DNA of 64,000 bases, from NCBI GenBank assembly GCA_950295325.1, contig OX485806.1, forward strand, positions 50,093,169 to 50,157,168, in the 5' to 3' direction. A model generated the notes under the pieces. That model was not told where the DNA came from. It worked only from the letters and a program-made list of their open reading frames with translations, and did no database searches. Both the position numbers and the translations under genes were made by a program. Position 1 is the first letter of the stretch, and every line of letters begins with the position of its first letter. Positions 6,284 through 28,547 of the stretch are shown one piece after another. Source of the stretch: Polytrichum commune (Eukaryota > Streptophyta > Polytrichopsida > Polytrichales > Polytrichaceae).

Positions 6284-6375
6284 TGTCGCGCACCTATGCA
6301 TGAGGAGTGCCTAAAATACCATAGGCACAAGGGACCCCGAAGTGACGCCCACAAATTGTGGAGCCATTAAAGAGA
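6284..6375 (+). repeat. 3' LTR of the gypsy element, left fragment
   Basis: It begins TGTCGCGCACC and aligns with 1852-1935. It is cut at 6375 by the CACTA insertion and resumes at 28548. The last three bases (6373-6375, AGA) are one copy of the CACTA target-site duplication. Confidence 0.85.
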
Positions 6376-6399
6376 CACTACTACAAAACACGTCTTTTA
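6376..6399 (+). repeat. Left terminal inverted repeat of the CACTA element
   Basis: 24 bases identical to the reverse complement of 28524-28547. It starts with the CACTA signature recognised by the transposase. Confidence 0.95.
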
Positions 6400-7541
6400 C
6401 AACTGGGTTTTCTAACTCATACAAGTGAGAAACCAGGATTTTACTGACGTGGAAAACGACCAGTCGCTCCGTACAAGCAGTAAAGGAATATCGGACAGAA
6501 CGTTCCCAATGGATACGTTCCCAATGGCAGTGAAGTTGGACTTGCGACGCGTGCCTTACTTCATAGAATCATGTCCTATTTCACTATGTTTTGGCAATAT
6601 AAGTAAGATACGACACATGTCCATATAACTCAACGAAGTGATACAATATCACGGGCACTAGTCATGTAAGGTTTTGTTTACTTCACTGAACAAAGTAATA
6701 CAATGAAAAATGCGTATACATACATTCCAAATTACTAGTGAACGATAAGAACGTGGTTGAAACAAATATGTAACCACGTGGCTAAGATTAATTGAATTAA
6801 TTCTCACACATTACTTATTCCAGTAATCGCGGACAACCAAGTGGGTAGTCAATAACGTTGCGTAGTTAGCTTCTTTGACTTTAGGTAGTAAATACATACA
6901 ACAACTGCATATTTTCTTACTTCACGTCGTCATGTAAACATCACTGTCTGGAGTGATGTTTACCTCAACCAGTGGTTTATGATCTACGTTGTTAGGTCAT
7001 GTGGTTCACGAATGTCTTTTTTGTGTATTACTAGCAGTGAAGTATATATGATATTGCCAAGTGTATGTGTAACTGTACGTAATAAGTGTCTGTGACTACC
7101 AAGAGTGAATACATATTTAGATGGCATTTATTTCTTACTTGAAGTCGTGATATCTATATTACTATGTAACGTAATGTAGACAACAAATTCTGGTATTTTT
7201 TGTACGTTGTGAGGTTATGTGGTCTTCACATGTCTTTAGTGTATATTACTGGTACTGCAGTGAATATCGACTGCGCTAAGTGGCATAATTAGGCTGCAAC
7301 TGTGCGCGTTTACTGCTACTAGTAACATGCGGCTGACTCAACATAGTCATAAATTTATGGCATTAACAATATATTGATATTTATCATACGAGGATCATCG
7401 CAAACATGATCATTTAGTTCAGAAACCAAATCATATTCATCCAATAGTGTCATGAATGTTTCACAAATTGCTTCTAACAATGGTAAACACTGAATTCCAA
7501 ATGTCTGCAAATCAACCTAGATCTACAAATCCACTCCACAC
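6400..7541. repeat. Left subterminal repeat region of the CACTA element
   Basis: No coding sequence is seen. The region is rich in short motifs around TACTTCACT, AGTGAAG and AGTAATG in both orientations (for example near 6550, 6680, 6920 and 7035). This fits subterminal binding sites of a TnpA-like protein in CACTA elements. Two related blocks (about 6960-7080 and 7190-7310, sharing TACGTTGT.AGGT.ATGTGG and AGTGAA.TAT) are a diverged tandem duplication. The 7070-7410 part recurs at 13310-13630, and its first 130 bp recur in a transposase intron at 27105-27240. Confidence 0.6.
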
Positions 7542-7823
7542 TCACATAGCCGCACATAAATTTACACATTCGCTTAACCAAAGAATGTAATAGCCCTTCG
7601 CTTTGCCAATAGTAATCACTGGAGGGTCGTCTCCAGTGAGAGGTTCGAGCAAAAGATAGTCGTCTTCAAGTGACTCCGTGACGGCCAATGATACATAACC
7701 ATTGCCAATCACCTTCCCATGCAGCATTCCACTTGCTACATTTTGAACTACACCCTTCCCAATGGTTTTCGCTTTCGAATCCGGAGAATCATAGCCACGC
7801 AGGTAAACCAAGTCCCCCGTAGT
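7542..7823 (-). CDS. Tnp1/En/Spm-like C-terminal domain (last exon of the accessory gene)
   Basis: About 93 codons are open to the stop at 7542-7544. The start VYLRGYDSPDSKAKTIGKG, a central LHGKVIGNGYVSL and the end GKAKGYYILWLSECV follow the layout of the plant Tnp1/En/Spm-like transposase domain (V.L.S......VA.GTI...., LHG..., VGDAVG..IAWP..LV). It is the terminal exon of the broken gene above, so it is not expected to be made as a stable protein in this copy. The family call rests on remembered patterns, not on a search. Confidence 0.65.
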   Translation of the reverse strand, partial: TTGDLVYLRGYDSPDSKAKTIGKGVVQNVASGMLHGKVIGNGYVSLAVTESLEDDYLLLEPLTGDDPPVITIGKAKGYYILWLSECVNLCAAM

Positions 7824-7977
7824 CTGCACAATTCCCACGTACATATGTTACTATTCCAAATTTTGAGCACGAATCACACTATTTTGTTGGTGTTGATATT
7901 TGCAGATCAAAGAAATATTCAATCCAAAGTACTAAAGTTACATTGTCGTCATATCTACTTTGCTGTGTCAATTTTTC

Positions 7978-8106
7978 TTTACTATGTCAAGTAATGTTTA
8001 CTATGACATGTCCAGTAATGTTTACTATGTGCAGTAATGTTTACTATTTCATATTTACTATGTCCAGTAATGTTTACTATGTCATGTTTACTATGTCCAG
8101 TAATGC
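7978..8106. repeat. Short tandem array in an accessory-gene intron
   Basis: TTTACTATGTCCAGTAATG and close variants are repeated about five or six times at 20-35 bp spacing. It lies in the last intron of the minus-strand gene. The TACTATGT.AAGTAA core also occurs at 13420, 22170 and 27215. Confidence 0.75.
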
Positions 8107-9331
8107 ATCATCAGTTTAATTAACCCTGCAGAAATATATGAAATGTGCTTCCAAATCAAACATATAAATCATAATGAAAGCATCAACCACCTTAAGCCGA
8201 ATTAAATAAACAAATTGCGTCTTAAATCCATAATGAAGTAATTGAGAAACTTGAATTAATGTGCTTACTTGCACTTAGCTACCAGGCTTCATTAGTTTGA
8301 CCGAATGCTCACCAAATCCTGAATGGGTGATGTCTTCTTTGACGCCTTTGTGCCAAGGGGAGGTTTGTCACCCCGGCGCTTGTCCGCCATTTCCTTGTCT
8401 CCTTCTTTCTCCGTTTTCTTCGAGCCCTTTTTTAATGGGCTACCCCTGGATTTTTCTGCAATGTGCAATCGAAACTACATATATTTAACAAATACTTTTT
8501 TATGTGCTCAAAATATATTAGCCAATCTAGGCTCAATAGTCAACATAATTGGGGGAATTTACATGACCACTTAAAGAGCACAAGACCTTCACTTTGATAT
8601 TGAATAACATAGTCATATGAAGTCTGAAAATCTTGAGGTTTACATGGATTGGCTTTCATCTGACTTAGGGTAGTAAGCCTCATTGACTTATGGTAGTAAA
8701 TAGAAACAGTTACAATGAGCATTATCTCACTATTATTTTTACTATTCTATGTTTAGGCTACCTTTCGGTAGCAAGGGACCGGCCTCTAGAGTAAGTTTTT
8801 GTGACTCGCTGAGCCGAGCACGCTTCGGCCTGGGTCCCGAAGCCGGCTTTCCACCGTCAGCCGATGTTGCTTGGACAACTGACGGTACGCTGCCACTGGA
8901 AACGTCCGGTGCCTACAACCAACAACAAATTATGAGCGCATTAAAGCCCAACATTGAGCTAAAGAAGACTACACTATTACACATGAGGTTCTGAAATTTG
9001 GAAATGATAGATTTACGTAATGGAAACATATTTATCAGATGCCAATGCTTTCCAACGGAACTAATTCAAACCTCATACCTGTTCAGCCTCGTCATGCAAT
9101 GAGGAGGCTTTCTGGGAGCCGAAGGGGATGTCTGGGCTTAGTGAGGTGACCTTCTCACCTGCACTGCCAAAGTCCATGGTCTTGCTTACCGGCTCCTTCG
9201 ACTGAGAGCGTGCGGGTGGTGATACACTCCTACGAGAGTCTGCTCTGCCTTTGTGATCACTGGAAGGTTGCTCTCCACCTGAGGGAGCGCTGGCTGTGAA
9301 CCCTTTGAGTGGTCCACCACTCTGCGGGATC

Positions 9332-12098
9332 ACTTTTAGTTAGAATGTTAGCATTAAAAGTTAGAATTGATAGGGAATTTAGGAAAATTTAGTTCATTTA
9401 GCATTTAGCCTAGAAGAAGGAAGGTCAAAATGAAACTAAGTAGTGCTAGAAGATAGCAAAGTAGAAAAAATGTGCTAGCTAGTAAAAACAACTAGCTAAG
9501 CAAATATTAGTAGATGCTAGTTATTAAGCAAATGTTAGTAGATGCTAGCTAAGCAAGTGTTAGTTTATTAGTTAGTGTGAGGCACACAAGACTATTGGAG
9601 GTGTTTTACGTAAGAAGATAAAATCGGCGTGAAGAATTTTGAAGACAAAAAAGAAAGAGAGCAAGGGGGATACTTGCCCACTTGCCCCCTTGCCAACTCG
9701 ATGGCGGAAAAATTAGAAAGATTTCTAAAGGTTTTTTGTCGGAGCCACCTCGGCGAGAGGGTGGCAACCTCAACCGGGAAAACCCCCGAGCCAAAATTTT
9801 GGGAAAGGGTTTGAAAAATGGATCCGGTGGAGGAGGGGTCCAACCCTTTTGTGAGAGGGTTTAAAAACCCCTCCTTCCACCTTGTAGCTCTCTTTCTTTC
9901 TCTAGTTTTTGGGCGAAGCCCTGCTTCAATGTAGTTAGGAAAAAATCCTTTAGCATGTATTCTCAATGGTCTAAAAGAAAGGCTTGAGAACCTCCTCTAC
10001 TCCCTCTCTCCTAGTTAGGTTGTGTGTTTATTAACACACCAACAAAATTATTCCTTCTTTTGTAGAGGTAGGTTGGATGGTAGAGTTTTGAGTAGAGGCA
10101 TTATAGACCTCATCTGCCAATGCCCTGAAGGCTTAGTTCAAAAGCTAGAACAAGATACTTATCATTTTTCTCTTAGAGAGATTTCATATAGCCATCCATA
10201 GCTGTTTCCCATTTGTGATTTGGTTGAGATGACAATTAGTTATGGATTTTCAAAGATGGAGTAGAAAAACTGGGTGGTCTTGTGGGTAGCGGCTGCTGGA
10301 TCAGACCTGCGAGCCCAATAGGAATTTTAATTCCAAGAAATTATATTTTTCCCAAGTAGAACTTTTGTGTAGCTTTCCAAAATGGCTTAGAACATTTGAT
10401 TTGAGCATGATTTGAATTAGATATGAATTGTGCAAGATGGGACACATAGTTTGAGAACTTTTGGTTGACTGCTGCATTACAGAGGATCTGCTGGGTTCAC
10501 TTCGGCTTACCTTTCTAATCACATATTTTTATCAAATACATCTTTTTAATATCTCTCCAGGGTCATATAGAACGTTTGATTTGACTAAGATTTGAATTAG
10601 ATATGAATTGTTGAAGGCGAGATACATAGTTTAAGCCTTCTTGATTGACTGCTGTGTTACAAGGAGTCCGCTGAATTTCTATTAGCTTAACCTGCTGATG
10701 TCATAATTTTTCTAGTTAGAGCTTGTTCATAGCTTTCCAATGGTATAAGGAAAGCCTAGATCCAAGTAGTAAGGAATGTGCTATGAATTTTTGAAGTTAG
10801 AAGGTAGATAGGTGGGTTGGAAGGGTCGGTTGAATCGACCTCACACTTCCAACCCTCATAACTTTTGCATTTCTTATCCGATTAGAGTGATTTTTAGATC
10901 ATTGGAAAGATAATTTGGTGCACTAAGTATAAATATTATGCTTAGGATTAAATTACAGGGCAGAATAACACTTTATATTTTAATTGTTAACTAAGGTACG
11001 CTTACTACCAAACTAGTTACAAAGAAGGAGGCAAGGTCGACGCTCGGAAAGTGGAGCAAGGAAGGAGGTAGCGGCTCGGCCTACATCAAGCCCAAATCAA
11101 CCGAGGAAAATTGAGGTAAATTAACTAACCTTAAGCCTTCCATTTAGGATCGGAGGGAGCACGGCTAAGGTACGCATCTCTAAATCCACTCACCTATCTC
11201 GTAAGGTCAAGTGGCTTGACCACTTGACCGCCAAGGGAGTACCCAATTCCATTGTTTTCGGGGCCCTTGGTATATTTTGTGGTAGTAGCTTCATTTATTA
11301 GCAAGTTTCGTGTGTGGTAAGTCGGATTAATCACCGACACGACCACTCTGAATGTTGTTGGTGGAAAGGTGGGGTTAATGACCCGCGAATCCACTATTAT
11401 GTTGTTGGCCCCATAGATTGGGAGTAATGACCCCAATTTATGAAGATTGCGCAACAGGTTGAACCTACAGGTGGCCCGTCACCCTGGTCCCATTGAGTTG
11501 CATTTCGTGGTCTATCCAGTGTAAACACATTTAACAATCAAAACATACAAAATAAATCGTAAACCCTTGTTGGCAAGAGACCCGAGGTAAGGGGTGATGC
11601 CTAATATGTTAATGTAGTAAGTTAGGACGTGCAAACAAAAGTAAGTAATTAAGAAGGAATTTGTGTGAAGGGTGGGACTTAGGCCAAGTTCCCCCGCTTA
11701 GAAAACTAAATAGAACTAAATAAAGAAATAGGAAGAATTGAATGATCCATCAAATTGTCGTTATTCCGTTCGTTGAGTTAGGGTGGTATGAGTCACACCC
11801 GGTTGGGTGTATCAGAACCATCCCAATTCACAAATTAGGATTGCCTTGGTTTCAAGGCTGGTGCGTCTGCGCGTAGAATAGGTTGTAGGTTAAGGTTAGA
11901 ACTAGATATGAAATTGGTTAGTGGAGTTTAAAGCCACACTAGTAAAAAACTAAGGCCTAACCTCCGGAGGTACTACGACGCATATTTAATCTCCCTTAAA
12001 AATCTAACTACTCACGTTATACACCTATCATCCGGGTTCGGCTTGGGCGCCTGCAAATGCAGGCCACCTTCACCGAAGGGCTTGTGTGATACTTTTAG
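9332..12098. mobile_element. Possible non-coding insertion within the accessory gene
   Basis: This 2.75 kb stretch separates exons 4 and 5 and is bracketed by the same eight bases ACTTTTAG (9332-9339 and 12091-12098). Inside there is no clear protein. Two diverged copies of a roughly 180 bp unit (about 10375-10520 and 10560-10700, sharing TTTGAATTAGATATGAATTG and TTGACTGCTG) and a GTTGGAAGGGTCGG...CATAACTTTTGCATTTC region resemble untranslated parts of plant LTR elements. I find no matching LTR pair and no terminal inverted repeat, so the class is open. It could also be original intron sequence. Without it the intron would be only about 49 bp, short for a plant. Confidence 0.35.
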
Positions 12099-12544
12099 GC
12101 TCCCTCGAAAGGGGGTGGCCCAAAAGTACCACACTGGCCATTCTTGAAATTGTGATGCCAAGCTTGGCCATCACCAATTCAATCGAGCTCTGCATTGCAT
12201 TAAATTTTTTTTCTAGGGCATTAAATCTGAGGTCTACCTCTGCCCTCCTCTCCTCCATTCCGGCATCCCGAGTGCGACTTACGTGCGGCGATACTCCAAA
12301 CCCGCCCTCATACTGGGCGTCGCTGACTCCCCCCTCGACATATTGGAACTGTTTGGTCGGCCGCCTTTGGACTTGGAGGTGTTCTTGTCGCGGACAAGTT
12401 CATCCTCGACCTCGTCCTGCCGAGGGTCCCTGTTTAGTTCGGATGCCTGCAAGATCAATCATGAAATACTCGCATTTAGATAAATTGAACACCTATCTTT
12501 GCTCTACCCGCTGATGGTTAACTGTACAAAGTAACATCAGAGCC

Positions 12545-12670
12545 TAATTGTCACGTCTACTGTGCATAGTTATAGGTGCATAGTAACATACAACTTCGCA
12601 TAGTTAAAGGTTCATAGTAACCTACAACTTAACATTAACTTTGAACTGAACACTTGTTTTTAACTATGCT
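12545..12670. repeat. Short internal repeat of the CACTA element
   Basis: CTACTGTGCATAGTTA..GGTNCATAGTAACATACAACTT occurs here, partly duplicated in tandem, and again at 14310-14375. Both are in introns of the accessory gene. Confidence 0.6.
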
Positions 12671-13309
12671 AATATTTGGAGGTCACATTTATGTCTAGCA
12701 CTTACCATCACGGTAAAGAATAGGGTGGTAACAACACTAATTATAATCATCGATATTCAAATATTACAATGAATTTACACTAATAACTCAAGCTTGCTCA
12801 CCAGCCGGGCTCGGACCTCCCCTTCGGAGCGTCCAAAGGTAGAGACCTTTTTTACGCACTTCCTCGCCTCCCTCATCACATTCGCTTGATAGATTTTGCG
12901 AGGATCACGTGTCAGCTCAACCATGTGCTGCTAGTGGTCCAATCGAATAGACTCAGATCTGCATAAACCTTTTAATATGCGCATCTTCATCTGCGCTCTC
13001 TTACTTTTCAGCTGCTGACCTAGATTAGATTTGAAAACTTCATACCTCAACACCCTCGTTTCTCCTCTCGAGCCGCGATACTCCCAGTTCTCCTTCATCC
13101 GTGTGAATATGTTGTCGAGAGCCGTTTCAGACTGATCGTTTACGTTGTCCACGCTCTAGTCCAGATCGCTGGAGTAGCCTCGCAGCGCGTTCAGCCACTG
13201 CGGCCTATACACACCGCTGGGATTGCCTACAAAAAACTATACGAATCAGCCACAAACCTCCTTCAACAAATAACAATAGTCATGTGTTAAGGGCATATAC
13301 ATTATATTG

Positions 13310-13630
13310 TCACAGGTTGTAGTAGGCACTAACTCTACGTAGTAATCATCTGCGACTGCTCAGAGTGAATACATATAGTAATGGGTTATATCTCTTACTT
13401 CAATGAGTGATAAACACTTTACTATGTCAAGTAACGTTGACAACAAGGTCTCGTATTACTACAAGTAATGAGGTACATATCGACTTCGCTAAGTCTATAG
13501 AATGCAAATGAGTTTGGTTACTGTAACGAGTAACATGCAGATCACTCAACTTAGTCGTATGTTTATAGCATGCATAATATGTTTACACTTATCATACCAA
13601 GATCATTGTGTTGAGTCATATTCTTATTGA
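13310..13630 (+). repeat. Dispersed internal repeat, copy B
   Basis: It lies in the intron between exons 2 and 3 of the accessory gene. It matches 7070-7410 (copy A) over about 320 bp with many substitutions, in the same orientation. Shared blocks include GAGTGAATACATAT, TTACTATGT.AA.GTAA and ACTCAAC.TAGTC. Copy C (first 130 bp only) is at 27105-27240. Confidence 0.65.
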
Positions 13631-14951
13631 CAACATGTTATGCAGCGATAGTTCTTGAAGTTTGGATGCCTAAGAAAACATCTAATTAACATTGGATAAA
13701 ATACTAAGTTGGATATGGTTTACCGTTATCGTCAAGATCGACAACGAATCTTGGCTTTCCCTCCCTTGCTCTCTCATCGAATTCATCCCGGCATGCTTTA
13801 TTCGCTGCCCTCCTCTTCGCCTTCATCTGCGAGTTGCGATTAGTAGTCCTTCGCCATTTTCCCTCTCCTCCATCTTCCTCTTCATCGCTGCTATCCTCCC
13901 TCACCGAGTGGCGGCGTGATGTTAATGCCAACTCCCGTTTCATAATCAACAACTCTTTCTTTTATATCTCTAAAGCCAGCTTGGCTGCACTACTATCCTT
14001 GGGAGGGCTTAGAGCATCCCGCTGAGGATGCTTTCCTCGTGCCCGGACATAGTCTCTCCCGTCCTCTATCAAGATTGGCTGAGTCCAATCGAAATCTTCT
14101 TCTTCCTCGTCCTCATCCTCTTCATTCTCACGTAGTTGCGAACAACCTTCAGGATCTTCAACAGGTAGTTTCCTCTTCCCTCTGCGAGGTGAAGCCATTT
14201 CCTTCTTCCTAAAAGTCCAGCTTCTAGGATTGTCTCTCCTCTGCAAAAACACCCAAACAATATTCTTATTGACTATACATTGTGACATCCAAGGCCACAT
14301 AGAAATTGCCTACTGTGCATAGTTAAGGGGTCAATTAACATACAACTTTGCATAGTAGAGTTCAACTGGACCAAGTAATGTGCACAACTAGACAGTAGTA
14401 AGATCCAATTCCAAATGACTACAACCCCACCCACAACACTTATGAAGATTAGGAATGCGTTAAATGCATGAAAGTGACCAACTTCAGGCATGCAATAATT
14501 AAAGTGACATATGCAGCCAGAGATCAAGATTACTTACCGGTTTGCCTTGGGTTGCAATGGGTTTTCTGTGGTCTTCTTCTGCTTCTTCTTCTTCTTCTGC
14601 TGATTCTACGCTGTACTCTATGTCCTTATCAATTTTATGCTCACTTGACACACCATCTTCCTTGCTACTCTCCCTTTCCTCTATATGCGTTGAAATTAAT
14701 GGTTTAGTTGACAACCTGGCACTCCTCCTGGGTGGCTGAAGGGAATCGGATTCTGGGGTCCTGGCATCCTCGAAAGTATTAGCAAGCAGATCTTGCATTT
14801 TGGCTAGCAAAGACGAATTGATTGCGGGAAATTTGTGAACCTCTAAAAACAAAGTCTTCACGTCTTCATCGCTCAATGTTGCTATTTCTCTAAGTAAATT
14901 TTTCAGCTTAATCTCCATAATAATCTGATGACAGTTGGATAGCTGCGACAA

Positions 14952-15480
14952 ATGAACTAGGGTGAGGGTTCCAAATTAAGTTTATAAATTTAAAGTGTAA
15001 ACAGTTCTCAAAGTACACTACAATCTCAGGCATACCAACAAGTAACGGAAGTTTACCTCTTCAAAATAGCTGACGGTTGCACCGAAGCTGCCAATGCAAT
15101 AAGTCCCAAGGATTCCAACTTCCTTGTGTTCGCTTCAATTTTAGATCGCCTTAGTCGCTCGTATTCGGACTCCACTTCCATAAATTAAGTACACTACATA
15201 TGATGGAGGACCAGAATAAGGTAATACACAAAATAATATCTACTTTATATTTTAAGAACGGGGTCAAACATAAAAAATGTTTGCATCAGCCATTGAGCAT
15301 AACTTTAAAAGACATGTTTTTAAAAAAAATTGGACTGCACACTCAAAATTTGTTAACCATACTACTGTCAATAACCGACAAGTTAACGAGGTGCAATGTT
15401 CATAAAATTATGGCCTCAATTTGGATTTGCTAATTATCTCGCACTAAGCGTGTACTTGATATCCGCAGAGAAGTGGGTGC
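14952..15480 (-). promoter_or_regulatory. Probable 5' leader and promoter region of the accessory gene
   Basis: By position this lies directly upstream (on the minus strand) of the first coding exon. It is AT-rich with no long open frame. I cannot fix a TATA box or transcription start with confidence. Confidence 0.3.
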
Positions 15481-15499
15481 AGAGCTAATAGTGTTCATT

Positions 15500-16080
15500 T
15501 CAGGCCCACTTACCTTGCTGGAAATTAGAACCTGCACTGCAATATCCACCAGGATTCACGAACTCAAAACGCAGTAAGTAGGTGACTCGCCCAGTTTGGA
15601 ATGCCTCACAATCCGAGTCCTGGCAGGTTCTAGTTACTGAAGAATTAAACCAGGCTCGCAAACTTGGAGTTTTTCGACTAGCTAGTACTCTTCACCAGCA
15701 AACCTGCTTACCCACTTCAGAGGCTCCATTGCACTTGTAGAAACTGCGCCAGTACTAGAGTAAGAGCTTGATGAAAAGTCACTGCGGATCAACACATGCA
15801 TAATGAAATTTATAGCTGGAAAAACCTACTTACATTGAAATATTATCCACCAGAAACTCAAAACTAGGTGACCCACCACCCAGTTTGGGGTGCCTCAGGC
15901 TCAAAGTCCACAATCTCCCAGGGGCATATTCTACTGATTGAATTAGTAAAACTCACCGGCATAGAACTTTGGAACCCTAGTAGTCCTTCCCCAACAACAA
16001 ATCTACCCACTTCAGCATGTAGAGGTTCGAACTTGAAGAAGATGGATATTGCAGACTTACTAAATAATGGACTAGTGTTA
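15500..16080. repeat. Diverged tandem repeat in the central promoter region
   Basis: Two diverged units of about 300 bp (about 15525-15770 and 15845-16020) share CCACCAG, GTAGGTGAC.C, CCCAGTTTGG..TGCCTCA and CTACCCACTTCAG. Part of the same unit (GAGCATGAAGAAAG.CACTCCGGATCAA...ACTTACA) recurs near 20690-20770. It lies between the two divergent genes. Confidence 0.55.
16015..16059 (+). repeat. 45 bp perfect direct repeat, left copy
   Basis: Starts GCATGTAGAGGTTCGAACTT and is identical over 45 bases to 20633-20677. The two copies lie 4618 bp apart and flank the core that holds the HAL3-like fragment and the orphan terminus. Confidence 0.9.
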
Positions 16081-16252
16081 TGTAGACACCTACATTTGAG
16101 TGGAATATGGTGACACTTGCAACCAAGAATGGACACCACCAAAACATGCGTTATGGTGAGATTGGACTATGTGCTGAAATGGAAACTATTTTTACTTCAA
16201 CACATTCAAAGGGCCTATGTGATCACTTAAAAGAGGAAGGAGAATCTTCACT

Positions 16253-16770
16253 TTGACCTCTTATAACTTTTGCATTTCAACTTTGATTTTGACAATTGGA
16301 AACAACAATCTTCATGGTTCACAACTGTTCACCTCATTGAATAAGGCAATTCATGGTCCCATCCAACAACCAAAAGTGTGTGCAGTCGGAAGTAAACCTC
16401 ATAAGATAATCATTAGAGTACAACCAGGAACCTACTCAAAGAGAGACATTGTGTTATCAAATACTATACGATGGAAGAATCTTCACAACAATGTGCATGT
16501 TAGCAGATTGAATGACATATAAAGGCAGATTGGTCATGGGTTAGATGCGAGATTGAACTGCCACCTTCTTTAAGACTTGGGACACCTATTGCCTATCATT
16601 CAGATGGGAAGGCAGAGAGCAAGACAGATGACTCCAATGTTGCCACTGGCATGAAGTATGGTGTTGCTTCATCTTTGAGTTGGTCTCATTCTATATGTAA
16701 TCCTGAATCAGGTATGGAGATTTTCAAGCCCCTCAAAGGCTATTGCCTGCTTTAAAAGGTGAACACCTTG
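16253..16770 (+). pseudogene. Unidentified exon-like open segments in the CACTA centre
   Basis: Two overlapping open segments look protein-like. 16253-16522 includes HKIIIRVQPGTYS, faintly like the start of a pectinesterase/right-handed-helix domain. 16519-16755, one frame over, includes ELPPSLRLGTPIAYHSDGKA followed by a Ser/Asp-rich part. Neither has a start or stop context of its own. They may be fragments of captured host genes. I do not recognise the second and only weakly suspect the first. Confidence 0.25.
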
Positions 16771-17881
16771 AAAGGGTGGAGGCAAGCTGGACTGAACCTA
16801 CCTATCTCCCCTAAACCCCCTAGGTTCCCACGTTGTTTGGTTGTAAGCTAAATTGGATGCCAAAGTGATATCATTAAGTTTTCCCATAAGGCTATATTGG
16901 GCTACTTTCATACCACTTGAAAAAATCTGAGTTTACATATGTGATAAAAATGAATAAATCTTATTTTTGCAAACAGCCTCATGAGAACCTTTATTATTAG
17001 CCTACCAAGTCTTTGTTTGATGAAATAGTCGTTTAAACCAAAACCTTATGAGGGTGAGAGGTGATGAATATACACCATACTCTTGCATTCATTGCAGCAA
17101 ATATGCAGACCATATGTCTATACATCACACTTTGCAGCTTACAATTCATATAGCAAAATCAAAATATAAGTATTTAAAGACCCACGTCTGACATGAAAGT
17201 CAACAGTTTGTAGTATTAACTTGCGAATAGCTGCAGCAAAACAATGAGCTTTTCAATCTAAAGCAACAAACACCTGAATTGCTGGACCTGACCCTGGACA
17301 CTACATACCTTAGCGTAACGTCAGCCATTAGCCTATGACAATTCAATTCTTGACTAAGATCTCCACTGAGAGCTTAGACTTATATTTTCGTTCAAACAAT
17401 CAATTAAAACTGCAGAATGACAAAACTTGGAAAACTCAAACAAACGAGATGTGCACCTTTGCAAGTGTAATAGCAGACGGGTCCAATGAGCATGGGATCA
17501 GCCCACTTGCGAAGCTATAAGGTATGTGGTTGTTCTTCAGTTTTTTGTACATGTTCTCCAACTTCTACCAATTAAATTAACACAACACAACCTGTGGTAC
17601 ATTAGCAAATCTACAATGAAGCAGCAGCAGAAATCAGATTGAGAATGGGACCACCTCTATTTAGTTATGGTTATCAGAAGTGCAAGTTTGTTGATTCCTT
17701 AACTGATCACATAGGTCCTCCCAGATGTATTCACTATTGAGTGTGGAGTAGTTAATTAAAACGTAGTCCAACCTCTGATATATACATGTCTTTATAATGT
17801 TTGTTCTTTGATCCTCAGATAACCACACACCAATCTAATATAGGTGGTTGGTTAAGAAAAAAACCAAATAACACTCGCACA

Positions 17882-18121
17882 CCTTATGTGAAGAATGTTG
17901 TCTCCTATTTTGCTCCAGCTTGAGGACTCATCTTCATCTGTATATAGTTTCACACTGGCAGGCAGCCCACTTGTGTCCATAAAACGCAATGCAGGTTGTG
18001 AGGCCACTGCTCTTAATTCCGCCAAATCTGATAGACTATCAGCCAAAATTTCAAACTTCTTGCACCTCTGCCACTTGCTGCTAAAACAATCCAAGGTTGC
18101 CAAACTCCCAATTTCTCCCAC
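17882..18121 (-). pseudogene. HAL3-like phosphopantothenoylcysteine decarboxylase fragment (captured)
   Basis: The minus-strand frame contains ELRAVASQPALRFMDTSGLP followed by VKLYTDEDESSSWSKIGDNI and LHI at 18025-17885. Plant HAL3/PPCDC flavoproteins have the same order there: E.RAV.T..S..F.D...LP..V.LYTD.DE.SSW.KIGD.VLHIE. These decarboxylate phosphopantothenoylcysteine in coenzyme A synthesis. Directly after LHI a GTGTGC donor is present, at the place where the family continues into the ..RWAD.. segment, so the piece looks like genomic exon plus intron. The N-terminal flavin-binding start and all later exons are missing. A gene fragment picked up by the transposon is the simplest reading. 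Confidence 0.75.
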
Positions 18122-18678
18122 TCTAGTAGGGTTCAGGTGATCTCTTGTCCCTAAACCCTAATGACAAGATCTGCCTGAAGCGGCATTGATTTTCACGTCC
18201 AACATCACTTGAATTTATATCCATTGAAGATCCAACAATGAACCTAAGAGGAAAAAAAGATTGATGGAGACCATCCGCATGTCCTTATGATATTCAATTC
18301 AATGCAGATAAATGGCATGCAAAAAATTTCAAAGAGAAAGTGAGCAGCCACATGAAAGAGATTGCTAACTAGATCATCCACAGGATCCGTGAACTTACAT
18401 GATGCATTGACCAAAAAATGACAATCATTGTTCCCACTACATAGCTCCTTCAAAATTAAAACTCAGCACTGAGAATAGAATGCACATTTTACGCCTGTGA
18501 GCATGATTGATTGAGACTATGGCAATCAGTTGGTGACTAATGAATGAGTTAGAATACCATAGAGTGCTTCCGCATTCGGCTTTTTAATTGATGATTGTTC
18601 TTAAACTTTTGCCACGTGGCAGTCTTACATTGTTTGAGACCATTCAAATTCCACATGGAAATTATAGTTGGCCATCAA

Positions 18679-18723
18679 GTAGTGAAGTGGATGTTGGAAT
18701 AAAAGACGTGTTTTGTAGTAGTG
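18679..18723 (-). repeat. Orphan internal copy of the CACTA right end
   Basis: These 45 bases match 28503-28547 at 44 positions, including all 24 of the terminal inverted repeat and ending exactly at ...TAGTAGTG. Similarity stops at 18723 and falls off to the left of 18679. No partner left end was found nearby. Confidence 0.9.
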
Positions 18724-20460
18724 CCTCTACACAAACTTATTATTTCCGAAGAATGGGAGCATTTGGATGTGCATGAACTTAAGTTGGCAGCTAAAAATGC
18801 GAAAGAGTAGGATGCCCTACGTCAAAATAAGACTTATCATTCAAAAGACACTGACAACTGCAGATGTTTAGTCTAACCTACAAGAATGAGACTACTAATC
18901 CTAATTCCTGATGCTACTGGATTTCAATTTGGACAAGAATAAAATAAAACGTAAAAAACAGCTCAAACCCAAATTTGGGTGAAGAAATGGATTGTGCGTA
19001 AAGAAAAGATGGTCACCTAAGCATGGAAAAGCAGCAGCCGAGGAAGCCAAGCGAGCAGCAGTTGTAAAGTTGTTTTCTGATGCGATATGGATGTGAATGT
19101 TGCTCCAGTCTTCTTTGCAGATGCTCTTGCTGGTGTAATCGATTACCACTACATTGGCCCCAGCATGAATCCAAAGCTCTAGTCAAATCTGTCTACAAAT
19201 ACACATTCTCTTACAAGAGGACACTAACATATCACATAGACATCAAGTAATCAGAGGTCATCAGAATAAATCCATCGATTCCTCAAAATGAAGTGGCCTT
19301 CAAAAATACAGCACATTGCATCATTCTGTGGCATCCACTAGGCTCCTGCAAGCACCCACCCTCACATGTTTCCCACTTTCTGTGAAATTTGACAATTTCC
19401 CCAGGACCCCACACCTGCAACCCTAAAGTTGTCCAGCGAAGACAAGTTGTCCAGATTTTGCAAAAATTGGAGAACATGTTCAGAGCTAACAGACTGCTGT
19501 TGCACTCAAATTGCAACACGCTGTTCACATCAGTAGGCTCGCCGAGACGCCACCTTTCAATCACTGCAGACGTGGACGAAAGGGTGATGAGTCGATCAAA
19601 GGCACTCTCTTCACAGGACTGAAAACCTTGGATCTCCTGGTTGCGCTGATTTCGTAGTGTAAACAAATTTAGTATAACCTGCACTCATTTCCCACACTGA
19701 ATGGAATAATCAGTGTAGTACCCGCAAGAGAAGGGTCGATCAATGTTATGAACCAAAATTAGCAAGGGTTCAAATTCTACGTAACCATGATCACATATAC
19801 AAAATATTAAGCAAACTATTTGTGATGAGAGGAGCACATGTGTATTTAAGAACGGATTCAATGTAAAGAAATCCTCACTGGGCTGCAAATCTTAAGACAC
19901 ATCGAAACAATGATGTCACAAGCGTCAATCTGATGAAATCCTGGAAATGGGTCAGTTGTGTTTGTCTACGCAAGTGAGTGTGCAGTAATCCAAAGAAGTC
20001 GAACAACATTGGATGTCATTACAAACTGAATTCGCTGTGGTAATTTGTTGTTACACCAGTAAATGTGACATTGGAACAAAAATATCTACGCCGTAAGTGA
20101 ATTTTGGCAGCCATCAGAAAGGCCTACAGCTTCATGACATAAGCCCTTCGGCTCCAGGAACCTATAGTGTTGCCTCCACAATGATAGTAGAACAGCTGAA
20201 TGAATGAGCTTTGAAGACACCAAGAAAATAAATTGATCTGTAGGGAAGGCCAATCTAGATTTGTTCACAGTCAAGGACTCTGCATCAACATCCCAGTATT
20301 CAAATCAAGATGGTAAGCACAATTGGCCCAGCTACAAATTAGTCCAAAGGACATCACCGCATTTCTATGACGATCTCTGGCTACGAAAAGCTTGACTAAG
20401 GTTTTAGACACTGCAAATAAGTAGAGCGTTTGTCAAATCTTCTGTCATGACTTAAAAGCC
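18724..20460. other. CACTA central region, no gene recognised
   Basis: Short open segments occur on the minus strand (for example 19149-18901 with [20 protein letters not shown], followed by a GTGACC donor-like site, and 19684-19283). They could be further captured exons but match nothing I know. Confidence 0.4.
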
Positions 20461-20499
20461 GAAGAAATTTGGAGAGACAACGTCCAGAAGAGGATGACT

Positions 20500-21204
20500 G
20501 TATAAGTAGACACTTTTAAGTGAACGACCTGACCGATCAATAACTTTCTTTCAGGACACAAAAGGTGACCCACCAGGATGTACCTTTGACTCTGTCACTC
20601 ATTGAAGGGAAACAATAGACAGACAATGGTTGGCATGTAGAGGTTCGAACTTGAAGAAGATGGATATTGCAGACTTATTAAAGAAAGAGCATGAAGAAAG
20701 CCACTCCGGATCAATTACACACTGCATCGACATGGAGTTTTGGCTAGAAAAAACTTACACTGCAACATACATAATCCCCCAAGAACTTGACTCGAAAAAG
20801 GTGCAGTACAACTCGATCAAGGGAGCCAACTCTGGCCAACTCACCAAATCTCGCTACTCCGGCGAAGACTGTCGCTGAAAAAACCCTAAGTTTTCCCTGC
20901 CCGTTGCCAACAACCAGAATTCATCCATTCCCACCTTCGCTAAATGCCGTTGAAACCTCAAAGCTGCACACAAACCTCAAAGCTACACACAACCTCAAAG
21001 TTGCACACAACCTCTGCGGCTGGGTCTCCGCTGCGTCCACGAGAGCTTCTGCTAGGGTCACCGCGTCTAGCAAGCTTCCCCTAGGGTCGGAGCCAGTCTT
21101 GCGGTCATCGTGCCCAGTCTTCACACGGTGGCATTCGCCGTTCACACGAGAGCCCGAGGTGCTTTACGGTTGCAGGGCAGATTTTGCCCGTGGTAAATAC
21201 TCAG
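20500..21204 (+). promoter_or_regulatory. Candidate promoter and 5' leader of the transposase/SET gene
   Basis: A TATA-like TGTATAAGTAG lies at 20509-20519. Base composition turns markedly GC-richer from about 20830 to 21190, with an AAACCCTAA leader-like motif near 20881 and a short triple repeat (AACCTCAAAGCTGCACAC and variants) at 20954-21014. A CAG|GTAACA donor at 21204/21205 could splice to the acceptor ATACAG at 22235-22240, seven bases before the start codon. The open frame in this GC-rich part matches no family I know. Confidence 0.4.
20633..20677 (+). repeat. 45 bp perfect direct repeat, right copy
   Basis: Identical to 16015-16059. Similarity continues more weakly beyond it. Confidence 0.9.
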
Positions 21205-22240
21205 GTAACATTTGACTTTTCTGACCCTTACATTTCCCCCCTCTCTCAAGGGTTTGTTGGCGCTATTTTTAGACAGAGACTATTCATCAACTTCTCAGTT
21301 TCAAAGAGTAAATTTCCTAACCACTTTGCGTTCACACTTGAATGTTTCATGCTATTTTTGGTCCAATTCATTGAATATGGATGTTAACTATAGTTATATA
21401 CTTAGTTTTTGCTGTAGTGGCTACTTAGAATGTATTGAAAAAAATATAGTTAACTATACTAATTGTGTTGTGTATAGTAATGAAGGCTACCATTTGGAGT
21501 GACGTGTTGCTATAACCTTTTACAGGAAACTTTTTTTAGCAACTAAGTTATAGCATATCATTAAGTGCGCCGGCTAACTACTTATTTCATTTGTAATAGA
21601 TAGGACACTCTTGGTAAAAGCTATATCAACACGGAATTCCAAGTATTAGCCCAAGTGTAGTTGACAATACAATGTACACTAAATATAATAAGATTTAATG
21701 TGTTGGTTCCAGCTTCACATGTTCTATAATTGCCCCTTCAACTGTGAAGTAATGTCACTCTTTGAAGTAATGTGATTTACTTCATGGAGTAATGTCATGT
21801 ATCAAACACATACTCCTTCACTTTGGTGTATCAATCACTGTGAAGTTCTACTATTTGCGGGCACATCTACTTAATATCTAAAATTCTTCATGAATGCAGT
21901 TGAGAATCACATTCAAACTTATACACTCATGTCTGATTTGCTCTTCAACATATATTTCTAGGTTTTGCAATGACTTCCTAGTTTATATCTACAAATGTAT
22001 CGCCCAATGGTAAGTATCTAATTAACTGATGAACTACTCACATTATACGATTTTGGTTATTAAATTACATATAACTACATACAGTTGTTGTTCACTGTGT
22101 CAACTACATACAATTATTACTCAACTACATACAGTTATTACTTAACTACAGTTGTTGTTCACTGTGTCAAGTAATGCTAATTACTACATCTAGTAACGCT
22201 GTCCGTTTTAAGTAACAAGATTTTATTTGCTGAAATACAG
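21205..22240 (+). other. Probable leader intron of the transposase/SET gene
   Basis: AT-rich, with clusters of TGAAGTAATG (21740-21800) and of CAACTACATACAGTTATTA with TTGTTCACTGTGTCAA (22070-22180). It ends in a good plant acceptor at 22240. No coding signal is seen. Confidence 0.45.
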
Positions 22241-22247
22241 ATTCAAA

Positions 22248-23130
22248 ATGGACGGATCTGCAAGGCGCGCAATGTTGGACTTGGAGCTATGGAACTTGGA
22301 GGAAAAAGAAGCAGACAGACAAAGATTGGTTAAGTATCGATGCCCCTGTAGTATGTGTGCAGGGGGAAAGGTACTGTCTAGAGCAACCATACGGAAACAT
22401 CTCCGTCGATACAAACGAGATCCCGCATTCACGAAATCCATATCGGTAAGTGTTATATTTGTGTTCATTCAATTATATTGTTTTGTAATTGAGGCACTTT
22501 AATTTTGATGTAATAACGATTCCATACGTGTAGGCACAAAGAAGACCTTTTGTTGAGGAAGCAGCTAAGACGGCTATGGAAGAGTTTTTTAAAGAGATGA
22601 CAACCCCCACACTTGTCCCTCAAAAGAAAACTTACACTAACGAGGAGCTGAAATTGATGAATTGGAGGGTTGACAAATTCGATGGGCAGTGGTGTGGTGG
22701 ACCCATACCAAAGTTTAGTACTTTCAACTTTCATGATAGAAAGTGGGAAGTTCAAATTTCTAAGTTTTCGTTCATGGGTTGGGGTTTATTTGCAATGGAT
22801 CCCGCAAAAGCAGGCGATATCCTTTTGCCATTTGTGGGGCCTCAATACACTAGGACAGAATACCGGAAGATGAAAAGTCTTGTACCCCGCTTCAAAAGCT
22901 ATGTCCTTAAAGTTGAGGATGACATTTACATCGACGGGAGAGTGGAGAGGGGCAATGTTGCAGGATTTATTAATAGCTCCATAGGGCGAGAGGAAATCGG
23001 CAATGTAGTGTGGGAGTATAGTTTGCTTCCAAAGCCTTGGAACAAGAACGAATGGGGTTTTGTTATGACCATTGCATCAAGGGATATAGAAGTAGGAGAA
23101 GAGCTGTATGCATATTACTCCGTGAATTAA
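22248..23130 (+). CDS. Cys-motif/SET-domain fusion protein of the CACTA element
   Basis: Exon 1 (22248-22445, 66 codons) splices through an 88 bp GTAAGT...GTAG intron to exon 2 (22534-23130). The join is in phase 0, so the protein is 264 residues with no stop. Residues 32-37 are CPCSMC with HL at 51-52, the N-terminal Cys-rich segment usual for CACTA tnp2 proteins and probably zinc- or DNA-binding. Residues 148-261 form a SET domain: GWGLFAM (S-adenosylmethionine site), YIDG, GNVAGFINSS (pseudoknot, normally R/G-F-INHSC) and GEELYAYY at the end. SET enzymes usually methylate histone lysines. The normal NHSC is NSSI here, so activity is uncertain. Start: the ATG at 22248 lies just after the acceptor ATACAG and opens directly into the Cys motif. 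Unlike the transposase exons, this frame is fully intact. Confidence 0.8.
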
Positions 23131-23729
23131 AATTGTGTTATTTTCTCTAAGATATGTCGCGTACGCACTTCATTGCATATTTGAATATCAACTTGCATTA
23201 CTTGACCTAGTGAACCCCAACTGAATGCAGTTAAAAACAAGTTAACCATCTGCATTCCTTATAACTATAAAAGGTTACTTTGAAGTTTCATGCAATGCAA
23301 TCTTATTGTATACACATATACCTGATGAAAGTAATAAGGCATGTTGTGTTGGATAGCTTTACTTGATGCAGTAATTTGCAATACTCGACACAGTGAACTA
23401 GTACTGGATGAAGTTGAAAGTGCCAGAAGAAATCATGTGAAAGTAATGGTTCCTCCTGGATTTGTCGTAAACATACAAGGTTACTGGATCACAAAATGTA
23501 ATGATTTCTTATTCCTGATGCAAACACATGTTCAACACCAGGAGGCTTCTTGTGCTGGATAGTAAGATGTCGCCTTTTGCATTACTTGTCGTAGTGAGTA
23601 TCAACTTAATGCAGGTGAAAGGACTAGAAGAGAACATGTGCCAAAAATTTAACCCACTAGATTCAACATGTTGAGACATTGGATTAATAAGAGTAAATGT
23701 ATTGTTTCTTGTTGTTGATGCACATACAG
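23131..23729 (+). other. Sequence between the SET exon and the transposase exon
   Basis: No conserved domain is seen. Three diverged units of roughly 200 bp (starting near 23190, 23370 and 23590) share TTGCATTACTTG, AATGCAGTTGAAA and AGAAGAAATCATGTG. It must act either as 3' untranslated sequence of the SET form or as intron of the transposase form. Confidence 0.45.
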
Positions 23730-25298
23730 GAGGTCAACAACGACATCTACACTGCTAATCGTGACATATGGAATGCGACACAAGAAGGGAGGTACATGAC
23801 GGTAGAGGCAAACAATGATACGGGACAAGATGTAGATGGAGACATATTACTAGAATCAAATACGGAAACAGTGGAAGATAGCAAGGAGGGAGTGGAAGTA
23901 GTTCGGATGGTGAACGAGTGTTTCAAGAGGTATGATGGATTGCCCGCACGCGCAAACACCACATCACACAATGAGGGTATGAAGGAAGAAGACGAAGGTT
24001 CACAAGAAGACGAGGACGGGATGGCCAACATGGAAGTACCTTTACTTGAAGAGAGCAATGAAGAAAATGACTCAAGTATGGAGGATTTATTGAAAGAAAC
24101 GAGAACTCCGCTCTTCAAGGATAGCCCCACCAACCGCTTGCAAGCAATCCTAATGCTCCTCAATGTATGCAACATTTTTGGAGATCCAAACGCATGTGTG
24201 GACGAGTTGCTAAAGTTGCTTAAACATGATCTACTCCCCAAAGAGAACACTTGCCCTCCTTCACATTACGAGGCCAAGAAATTAGTGAGGAAGTTGGGTT
24301 TAAGCTACAACACTATTCATGCGTGCAAGAATGGGCATTGCTTGTTCAGGAATGAACTGAAGGACGCGAAAGAGTGTCCTCAGTGCAAAGAATCGCGGTA
24401 TATTCCCGGTAGTGACCGCATTCCAGTGAAAGTGTTGCGACATTTTCCTCTTATACCTCGGTTGCTCCGAATGTACCGTTGCAAACGGTTGGCAGAGCTT
24501 ATGACGTGGCATGTGGAGAGAAAAAACAATGACAACAAAGTGAGATCAGTAGTGGATTCAAAGGCATGGAAACACGTGGACGCAAGGTGGCCGGACTTTG
24601 CGAAGGAGCCAAGAAACCTATGTTTGGCACTAGCCTTGGATGGTGTCAATCCATTTTCCAACCAGTCTTTAAGTCATTCAACATGGCCAGTGATTTTGTT
24701 AAACTACAATTTACCACGATGGCTAATTACGAAACGGTTTTTTGTGATGTTAACCCTAATCATTCCCGGAAAAGAAAATGTGAAAGAGGAGAATATCCAT
24801 GTGTATTTAGCACCGCTTATAGAGGAGCTTCAAAGGTTTTGGAAAGGCGTGATGGCAATAAATGGATCCATTTTGGAGAAGGCGAGTTCAAGTGAGGGGA
24901 GTATTTATTCCACAAACCCAAATTTCAACCTTCGTGCGATTCTTATGTGGAGCATACATGACTTTCCGGCGTATGGGTTGCTTGCCGGACAAGTAACGAA
25001 GGGGTATAGGGGTTGTCCCCCATGTGGGCCACATGTGTCAACGAGGAGGTCCAAGTCGTTGGGGAAGAACGTTTACCTCGGTCATCGTCGTTACTTGGCA
25101 ATGCACCATCCGTATAGACGCCTAAAAAATAGCTTTGATGGAGAAGAGGACCACCGAGGTCCCCCGCGGGTAATGTTTGCACATGATCAATTGCGGTTTG
25201 CAAAACAAAGAGAAGACTAGTTGGCAAGCTCGACTGAAAACAAAGAAGGAGACAAACTGGATCCAATCCACGAGCATGGAGTGAAGAGAAAGAATGCA

Positions 25299-26075
25299 CT
25301 CTTTGCATTACCATATTGGAAGGTACACACTAGTGACTATTGTAATACTTTGTGAAGTAATGCATGTCTATTAAACGTAAACACATTTTACTGTGTGAGG
25401 TAATGCATAATGACTAGAGAAAGTAAGTGTTCACTTATAAATGCATTTTTCCTAATACTCTAATACTTATAGAAGTAATGGTATAGTCATATCGGACAAC
25501 CATTGTTTCAACACTTTGCAACAGTTTAATATATGGGAATAACTTAGGTCTTGCAACAGTTTAATATATGCAGCAACTTAGGTCTTGCACTCTTTGCATT
25601 ACCATATTGGCAGGTACACACTAGCGACAATTGTTTTACTTTGTGAAGTAATGCATGCTTATTAGAAGTAAACACACTTTACTTTGTGACGTAACGCATA
25701 ATGACTGGAGAAAGTAAGTGTTCACTTATAAATGCATATTCCCTAATACTCCAATACTTATAGAAGTAATGATATAGTCATATCGGACAATCATTGTTTC
25801 AACGCTTTGCAACAGTTTAATATATGGCAGTAACTTAGGTCTTGCAACAGTTTAATATATGCAGTAACTTAGGTCTTGTACTCTTTGAATTACCATATTG
25901 GAAGGTACACACTAGCGACTATTGTTTTACTGTGTGAGGTAATGCATAATGACTGGAGAAAGTAAGTGTTCACTTATAAATACATTTTCCCTAATACTCC
26001 AATACTTATAGAAGTAATGGTATAGTCATATCGGACAACCATTGTTTCAACACTTTGCAACAGTTTAATATATGG
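25299..26075 (+). repeat. 291 bp tandem repeat across an exon end and intron
   Basis: Unit 1 is 25299-25589, unit 2 is 25590-25880 (both 291 bp), and unit 3 is 25881 to about 26075 (shortened by an internal deletion of roughly 45 bp plus truncation). Each unit begins with CTCTTTG.ATTACCATATTGG, the last 24 bases of the transposase exon, followed by an AAG|GTACAC or CAG|GTACAC donor. The duplication therefore copied the 5' splice site twice. Confidence 0.9.
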
Positions 26076-27104
26076 CATTTGACAGACAGTGTACTTAACC
26101 AAATTTTGTGTGCACCAACAGGGCCTTCTTATACGCAATACGTTGGATGTAATGCACTGCGAGAAGAACATCACAGAAAGTCTTATGAAAACCATATTTG
26201 TGGAGAAGGATACACTCAAGGTTCGCATGGATTTACAAGAAGCCAACATACGGCCGCATTTGTGGCCCATACCGGGGAGAAAACCAGGAAGCCTCACTTT
26301 GCCACAAGTCCCATATGTGCTCACAAAGAACGAGAATGAGGTATTTGTGGATGTTGTGCGGCAATTTAAAACTCCAACCCACTACGTGGGCCAATTGCGG
26401 AAAAGAGTTAACGTGAATGGGACATTGAAAGGATTGAAATCCCACGATTACCATGTCTTTATTCAACAAATTTTGCCCCTTTGTGCACGCACAATCATGA
26501 GAAAAGAGGTGCGTATATGCATAATAAGATTAAGCCGCATATTCAAACGGATATGTGCTAAAACCATCAATCCGTTGGAAATGAGTTCCTTGAGAGAGGA
26601 TACGGCCATCACCTTGTGCATGCTTGAAAAAGAGTTTTCACCGGCATTTTTTGATGTCATGACGCACCTTGTGGTGCACTTGATTGAGGAATTAGATATT
26701 TGTGGGCCTATACATGTCCATTGGATGTATCCTATGGAGAGGTATTTGAAGACATTGAAGGGCTATGTTCGAAATCGCAATAGGTCCGAAGCTAGTATGG
26801 CCGAAGGATATGCCATAGATGAGGCGTTTGGCTTTTGCACGGAGTACATGACGTCATATTCCATTACAAGTCGCAGGGTATGGGACGACAAAGAGGATCC
26901 TACAATGAACGACGAAATATTGGAAGGTGTTGGGCGACCAAGGATACTAACCCCCAAGATACGCGAGTGGATCCATGAGTTTGTAGTGAATAATGTGGCC
27001 CCCTTAGAGTCGTGGAGAAAGTAAGTTACTTTATGACTTATATTCTTGGCCGTGACATTATATTCCAGGCATAATGATATGTTAATGGCATGCACATTAT
27101 AATT

Positions 27105-27240
27105 TCACTAGTCTTACTAGGCAATAACTATACGTAGTAAGCGTCTGTGACTGTCAAGAGTGAATAAATATGGAAATCACATATATTTATTACTTGACAT
27201 AATGATATCTACGTTACTATGTAAAGTAATATTAACAAAA
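27105..27240 (+). repeat. Dispersed internal repeat, copy C
   Basis: It lies in the last intron of the transposase gene. It matches 7070-7195 and 13310-13440 (TACGTA.TAAG.GTCTGTGACT, AGAGTGAATA.ATAT, GATATCTA.GTTACTATGTAAAG). Confidence 0.65.
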
Positions 27241-27974
27241 CATAAGTGGGATTTGAAAGACAGCACAATATTGTGTTTTTTTGCAGGCGCCATACCGCAA
27301 GCATGACACAGCGTAAATTGGATCGTGAGGAATATCGAAGGAAGAAACGAAATGGCAAGATTGTCTATCTCGAAAATCTCCAAGATGAGCCCTTTCACAA
27401 TTGGTTCAAGTTAGAGGTTTCACGTGCCAAAGCGGCGGGAGAGGAGATTGATGAAGATGTATTGGTCTTGTCTCTTCCACCCTCTAGCCAAGCAACATCT
27501 TACCGCTCCATGTATGCTTTTGGAAACCATATCCGTGTGCGAAGTGCAGAGGGAACATTGACAACATGCGACTTTGGCGTGGCCGCCACCTTCTCACAGA
27601 ATTGTCGATCAAGTGCACGTGCCAAGAACATGAAGGCGGCGAACTTGGAGTATGTGGGATGGGTGGAGGAAATATTGGCCGTAGACTATGGTCGATATGA
27701 ATTGGTTGTGTTGTATTGTAATTGGGTGATGGCAAATATGGTTGGGTACAATGCCACCATGAAGCGAGATGAGTATGGGTTTAGCCTAGTGAATTTTGAT
27801 AGGTTGGTACCATTATCTGCCGAATCTTTCGCATTTCCACTCCATGTTGAACAAGTTTTATTTGCAGATGATTTGAACAATCATGGGTGGAAGGTGGTTC
27901 TACGGAAAGAGCCAAGGGGAGCAAGAGTTGTTTCTAACAAAGGACATAGGTTGCCTATCTCTAGGCAACGTTGA

Positions 27975-28523
27975 AGAGCATTGTGGTTTGGTGCCCGCAT
28001 CTTTAGAGAATGATGCAACACCAACTGACCCAATATTGGATGAGGTTGTGGTTTTAAGCAGTAACAAAGTGGTCGTAGCTTTGAACGCAATTGAGCACGC
28101 ATCTCTTTTTGAAGATGAGGATGACTTTGGAATTGAAGAAGATGGAAATGTTCAAATAGATTAAATTAGATTATGTTAGTTGTGTAGAAATGCCTCACTG
28201 TATATAAATGTGTACATTCCATTATGAATTGTAAAACGAGACGCCCCTTTTTGGTGAGTACTAAGTCTAAACCCTTGAAACACATGACAATCTGACCTGA
28301 AAATCTTTCCAAATCGACCACTTCACTACCTATAGTAATGCACGTTCCATTGGGTGTTCCCAAACACGTTCACACGTGCGTTCTCAACTGAATTGTTGTC
28401 CTACTTCACTACCATGACTCCTCAAAGTAAATTCGGACATTGAATGAACAACATTGAATTTCGTGCATTCCCCCAATCACTCTTCATAGTAGTAAAAGAC
28501 ATGTAGTGAAGTGGGTGTTGGAA
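27975..28523 (+). other. 3' end and right subterminal region of the CACTA element
   Basis: A second frame open from 27883 to 28164 overlaps the transposase end and continues past its stop with an acidic, family-like C-terminus (ending EDDFGIEEDGN), so the natural end may be there. After 28164 the sequence is non-coding, with TACTTCACTACC motifs at 28320-28335 and 28405-28420 and CATAGTAGTAAAAGACATGTAGTG before the terminus. Confidence 0.5.
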
Positions 28524-28547
28524 TAAAAGACGTGTTTTGTAGTAGTG
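28524..28547 (-). repeat. Right terminal inverted repeat of the CACTA element
   Basis: Perfect inverse copy of 6376-6399, followed by the second AGA of the target-site duplication at 28548-28550. Confidence 0.95.

Follow-up and report, generated by a model that had tools for sequence, protein, structure and literature searches.

We found that a CACTA element of Polytrichum commune carries a SET-domain gene joined to a transposase-type N-terminal exon. The element lies within a 64,000-nucleotide stretch of contig OX485806.1 (assembly GCA_950295325.1), which was analysed as a whole and is referred to here as the window. It is bounded by terminal inverted repeats (TIRs) and a target site duplication (TSD), and its N-terminal exon (exon 1), SET exon and tnp2 transposase are linked in the same way in many other copies in the host genome. 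The SET gene is under purifying selection, and we interpret it as an accessory gene by which the element may act on its own chromatin.

Linkage of the SET exon to the transposase gene

The element and its transposase gene comprise the following features, given in window coordinates.

6376..28547, plus strand: whole CACTA element, 22,172 bp, with perfect TIRs and the TSD AGA at 6373-6375 and 28548-28550
6376..6399, plus strand: left TIR, CACTACTACAAAACACGTCTTTTA, identical to the right TIR at 24/24 positions
28524..28547, minus strand: right TIR, pairing with the left TIR
22248..22445, plus strand: exon 1, Transpos_assoc-like, 66 amino acids with CPCSMC...HL (CPCxxC...HL); PF13963, E 4.6e-4, 20.7 bits against a cut-off of 27.7
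22446..22533, plus strand: intron of 88 bp, GT-AG (GTAAGT...GTGTAG), phase 0, with splice borders read from the sequence
22534..23130, plus strand: SET exon, 198 amino acids (22534-23127) and a TAA stop, with the SET domain (PF00856) at about residues 64-198
23730..25322, plus strand: tnp2 exon 2, Transposase_21 (PF02992, E 2e-64, 217 bits), placed by splice context, with an acceptor in phase 0 with exon 1
26122..27020, plus strand: tnp2 exon 3, DUF4218 (PF13960, E 3.5e-34, 117.5 bits)
27287..27974, plus strand: tnp2 exon 4, DUF4216-like stretch (PF13952, E 1.2e-6, 29.4 bits, just under the cut-off of 30.6)

The inverted termini starting with CACTA, the 3-bp TSD and the tnp2-type transposase, with PF02992 and PF13960 above cut-off, place the element among CACTA transposons. 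Exon 1 falls below the gathering score of PF13963 and so is only similar to Transpos_assoc; the SET exon matches PF00856 at 41 bits (E 2.7e-10, gathering cut-off 22.4). An initial annotation, made from the sequence alone, had described exon 1, the 88-bp phase-0 GT-AG intron and an open SET frame with the motifs GWGLF, YIDG, GNVAGFINSS, and GEELYAYY, all of which we find at the positions listed. The acceptors ending at 22533 (SET) and 23729 (tnp2) each continue exon 1 in phase 0, and the latter stands in splice-site context. The annotation also held that both transposition genes contain stops. This is correct for tnp2, whose exon 2 has a single premature in-frame TAG at 25218-25220, but no second, TnpA-type transposition gene was recognised, and Pfam searches with those other open reading frames (ORFs) that were tried gave nothing above cut-off. 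Likewise, its view of an intact SET frame beside a broken transposase is true of the window copy, but stop-free tnp2 stretches are present in many other copies.

Of the 64 contigs of the host assembly (407.8 Mb), C1-C7 and C27 bear the matches. Genome searches scored 150 of 209 candidates for SET, 86 of 736 for tnp2 and 150 of 441 for exon 1, and the best 30 of the 150 SET matches, which include the window copy (L002), were read as DNA. Exon 1 lies upstream in 29/30 of these loci and tnp2 lies downstream in 29/30, and the exon 1-SET-tnp2 arrangement is kept in subfamilies down to 58% SET identity. At the 19 plus-strand loci whose SET intron borders were read, the donor is GT in 18 and the acceptor is AG in all 19. 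Among the 150 scored matches, 45 of the 69 that are near full length have no stop. The initial annotation had left room for a SET exon confined to a single copy, or nearly identical to an intron-bearing host gene; instead, many copies carry it, and the near-identical matches among the best 30 of 150 are themselves copies with exon 1 and tnp2.

A second complete element, C6:26958139, is 13,747 bp long with the TSD GTT/GTT, and its locus (L008) contains exon 1 and SET together with the beginning of tnp2. Among ten copies examined for their ends, the right end was found in nine and both ends were exact in one; a further copy has a candidate left end with three mismatches and a TSD off by one base. 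For the remaining copies of the ten, the left end was not found within 10 kb, and the TIRs were not found in one copy of the 58% subfamily.

The linkage was also followed from the transposase side. A SET match lies within 5 kb upstream on the same strand in 60 of the 86 scored tnp2 copies, with a median gap of 622 bp; this count used 101 of 150 SET matches and 86 of 87 tnp2 matches, and the other SET matches show none near the 26 tnp2 copies that are left. One of these 26 has a SET match 6.7 kb away. Using 90 of 150 exon-1 matches, we found exon 1 within 3 kb upstream in 21 of the 26, and in 20 of these 21 the gap between exon 1 and tnp2 is below 600 bp, assuming that tnp2 has an unaligned N-terminal part of the same length as in the window. 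A gap of this size leaves too little room for the 597-bp SET exon and its introns. Since most SET-less tnp2 copies thus have exon 1 close upstream, exon 1 is the first exon of the transposase gene, with the SET exon placed between it and the tnp2 body in SET-bearing lineages. The existence of copies without SET marks SET as an accessory function of the element.

Constraint on the SET exon and its protein relatives

The SET codon alignment covers 24 of the 30 loci, as L015, L016, L022, L023, L024, and L029 were left out for stops. In five between-subfamily pairs, the ratio of nonsynonymous to synonymous substitution rates (dN/dS) is 0.10-0.17 for the SET domain, 0.09-0.21 for exon 1 and 0.21-0.27 for tnp2, and Z for the whole SET exon is 4.5-5.2. 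When neutral decay by substitution alone was simulated, the frame was still open at 60% identity in 2 of 300 runs (0.7%). The constraint at which the initial annotation had hinted is thus borne out by the SET-domain ratios.

That annotation had also suggested folding the SET part, and an AlphaFold2 model built on an alignment of 74 sequences, replacing a 20-sequence run with a predicted local distance difference test (pLDDT) score of 39.4, has a SET fold. In an alignment of 73 of 102 listed proteins plus the window (A2), the S-adenosylmethionine (SAM)-site Asn is present in 70/72 rows and the catalytic-type Tyr in 59/60 rows, residues that we take to serve SAM binding and catalysis as in other SET proteins. 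The neighbours in sequence and fold include both activating and repressive enzymes (COMPASS, ASH1L, EZH2, and SETD8). We infer that the SET exon may encode a compact protein lysine methyltransferase of the SET type.

Searches at the protein level listed 19, 102 and 119 clusters. In two relatives from outside the host assembly, P0102 and P0096, exon 1 leads into an open intron-like stretch and then the SET lead; exon 1 is complete in P0102 (52% identity) and partial in P0096. In P0099, also from outside the assembly, the SET part is joined to a segment that shares 59% identity with the end of the window tnp2. In a tree built from the window and 39 of the 157 proteins found, P0077 and P0070, close kin of this group, fall on branches other than that of the window. 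A viral or prokaryotic origin of the SET gene was considered and rejected, as three viral-contig scans and one genome-contig scan gave no confirmed relative; viral SET proteins match the fold, which places no origin.

A sister family, which includes Ceratopteris richardii KP509_03G089000 (P0127), has FINSS in place of FINHSC and an aromatic lead-in, like the element family, but carries a longer insert ahead of the YIDG motif; four element-family members are 28-33% identical to P0101. The lead-in, DGQWxxGPIPKLTxFxYWxRxWEV at about residues 50-75 of the SET exon, is conserved across the element family and echoed in the sister family. FINSS or FINNT is read in P0132, P0135, P0137, P0127, P0144, and P0130 of this sister family, among them two Ceratopteris proteins and one transcriptome record. 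P0137 is a cluster of 134 member sequences, a high count that suggests another repetitive or transposon-borne SET gene.

Possible functions of the SET protein

The economical reading of this gene is that the SET exon is very probably an alternative terminal exon chosen by splicing. Joining exon 1 to the SET exon would give a 264-amino-acid Transpos_assoc-SET protein, and skipping the SET exon would give an ordinary Transpos_assoc-tnp2 transposase. The N-terminal head, common to both products, probably recognises element DNA, and the SET enzyme would therefore be delivered to the chromatin of the element itself, possibly through a repeated motif, AGTAAYG. There, it would most likely write a lysine mark that keeps the element expressible. 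The anatomy, the linkage across copies, the purifying selection and the SET fold are observed; the splicing choice, catalysis, targeting and the direction of the effect are what we infer. We consider this model, in which a plant CACTA family of several lineages carries a SET exon within intron 1 of its transposase gene and the self-targeted enzyme keeps the element expressible, evenly poised when taken as a whole.

The candidate address is dense in the element, with the following clusters.

21476..23586, unstranded: AGTAAYG copies clustered upstream of exon 1 and flanking the SET exon on either side, from a motif scan
7990..8105, plus strand: AGTAAYG copies clustered in tandem within the left part of the element, from a motif scan
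25295..26124, plus strand: tnp2 intron region in which a 291-bp unit carrying AGTAAYG is repeated in tandem, from repeat and motif analysis

The window element has 30 occurrences, 28 of them non-coding, versus 4 in the 41.8 kb outside it, and a Markov null yielded 5.6 on average and at most 13 over 200 runs. Collapsing the tandem copies leaves 23. The second complete element has 21 occurrences, with none in its 5.3-kb flanks. By analogy, AGTAAYG is possibly a targeting address for the exon 1 head; it may equally be a TnpA-type site. In the fullest form of the model, the products of one gene would be a transposase and, as the alternative, an enzyme that methylates histones, both reading DNA with the same head; the motif-filled non-coding DNA would be the address, and the enzyme would oppose plant silencing. 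This form is tentative, and we regard it as possible and somewhat doubtful.

Several observations weigh against a maintained SET enzyme that is regularly part of the element. Stops occur in 24 of the 69 near-full-length SET copies, locus L023 is without exon 1, L024 is without tnp2, L022 is without the GT donor, and for 26 of the 86 tnp2 copies no SET match lies within 5 kb. In three of the eight dN/dS pairs the SET-domain ratio is 0.24-0.62, and among close copies dN/dS ranges from 0 to 0.67, resting on few changes. P0099 is possibly a chimeric metagenome assembly. Finally, NHxC, the canonical motif of SET lysine methyltransferases, is absent, with Ser in 65/72 and Asn in 7/72 rows of A2 at the His position; the window reads INSSIG, with NHSC changed to NSS.

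Among the alternatives, one accepts the enzyme and differs on its effect. The SET protein could be a self-regulator that methylates the transposase, lays a repressive mark limiting the element or prepares target chromatin. Enzyme and transposase share a gene and a head, sequence does not fix the substrate, and the neighbours on both the activating and repressive sides fit such a role; the motif arrays and the accessory, loss-prone distribution nevertheless look more like counter-defence and weakly favour it. We regard self-regulation as rather unlikely, and action against silencing as the more likely effect. A second alternative splits the locus into two genes, exon 1-SET and tnp2, each with its own promoter; in copies that carry SET, exon 1 would then serve SET only. 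An ATG in frame at 23697 would allow tnp2 exon 2 its own start, and the motif-rich DNA before tnp2 resembles, inverted, that upstream of exon 1. However, SET-less copies have exon 1 beside tnp2, and the tnp2 acceptor at 23729 keeps both its phase with exon 1 and its splice-site context, so that two separate genes seem unlikely.

The loss of NHxC gives rise to a third alternative, in which the SET domain would be catalytically dead and act as a binding or scaffold module on the Transpos_assoc head. Against this stand the near-invariant SAM-site Asn and Tyr and the low SET-domain dN/dS; PRDM9, moreover, is active without an NHxC motif. We consider a dead domain quite unlikely. A chance capture that left the SET exon as passive host cargo is extremely improbable, even though plant CACTA elements do capture host fragments, as stated in excerpted text of PMC13317346, and the window copy looks composite, since the same arrangement persists down to 58% SET identity under purifying selection and neutral decay would rarely leave such frames open; with this linkage across copies and this selection, chance capture and the possibility that the feature is not real were both rejected. 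We retain the alternative-exon model as the working interpretation.

Element structure and comparison with known systems

The insertion and internal structure of the window element can be traced through three further features.

1853..2056, plus strand: paralogous empty site 1, 76% identity over the joined element flanks
54047..54311, minus strand: paralogous empty site 2, 75% identity over the joined element flanks
18676..18723, minus strand: internal copy of the right element end, 48 nucleotides, 96%, from sequence comparison within the window

When joined, the flanks of the element at 6376-28547 match two uninterrupted flank-repeat copies in the window, with no gap where the flanks meet, and the 22,172 bp therefore entered as one insertion. 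The target belongs to a diverged, partly inverted repeat family at 1857-2450, 28545-29436, and 52088-61151. A composite of two neighbouring CACTA copies is suggested by the additional right end at 18676-18723 together with a 53-bp segment repeated on either side of it (16015-16067 and 20633-20685). In the host assembly, copy C3:5368006 likewise shows a right end, some 3.8 kb upstream of its SET exon. Inside the element, consecutive ORFs rich in charged residues at 13707-14975 on the minus strand, one with RRSARLS, are a candidate second element gene, with no Pfam match above cut-off. In the window, we also note a gag-like retrotransposon ORF at 3067-3351 (PF03732, E 2.1e-4, below cut-off) and a below-cut-off Ntox17 match (19.9 versus 25 bits); an Rfam scan of the window gave no match above the gathering score.

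To our knowledge, the best-known counter-silencing by plant transposons works through VANC proteins, whose enzymology is unclear. If our interpretation is right, this constrained SET enzyme, encoded by the element itself, would offer a concrete way into the question of how transposons remodel the chromatin they occupy. It would also be an instance of a transposase gene whose targeting exon is common to a chromatin modifier, and a SET-bearing element may use the enzyme to influence its silencing by the host. Since SET-bearing and SET-less copies share one genome, their silencing, expression and copy number could be compared directly given methylome and RNA data. In the literature searched, with Repbase Reports and most subscription journals outside it, we came across no CACTA element or plant transposon reported to carry a SET gene.

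A transposon-borne SET gene is a known idea, found here in a new superfamily and host and with a new gene architecture. SET genes are reported from oomycete HarbingerS and MuDR transposons (Kojima and Jurka 2014, as cited in PMC12730594), which by that description are likewise DNA transposons with a histone-methyltransferase-type SET protein beside the transposase. They belong to other superfamilies and hosts, whereas the window element is a CACTA element with SET behind the first exon of the transposase itself; its tnp2 transposase (PF02992) sets it apart from the oomycete Harbinger, MuDR and Helentron groups. Proto-Helentron-Pi also carries a short SET ORF, said to be similar to yeast Clr4 and to keep its cofactor sites, but is a rolling-circle element, and the excerpted text of PMC4067079 describes no exon shared with a transposase. 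SETMAR/Metnase similarly joins a SET domain to a transposase-derived protein, but it is a primate host gene fused with an inactive mariner transposase and not a multi-copy element gene. A parallel in targeting is VANC of the VANDAL elements, a plant element-encoded factor whose VANC21 target, YAGTATTAY, accumulates in tandem repeats, introns and upstream regions of the elements according to excerpts of PMC5735166. A dense short motif in non-coding and tandem-repeat DNA is likewise found here in AGTAAYG, but VANC belongs to Mutator-like elements (MULEs), recognises a different motif and, in the same excerpts, is not described as a SET enzyme.
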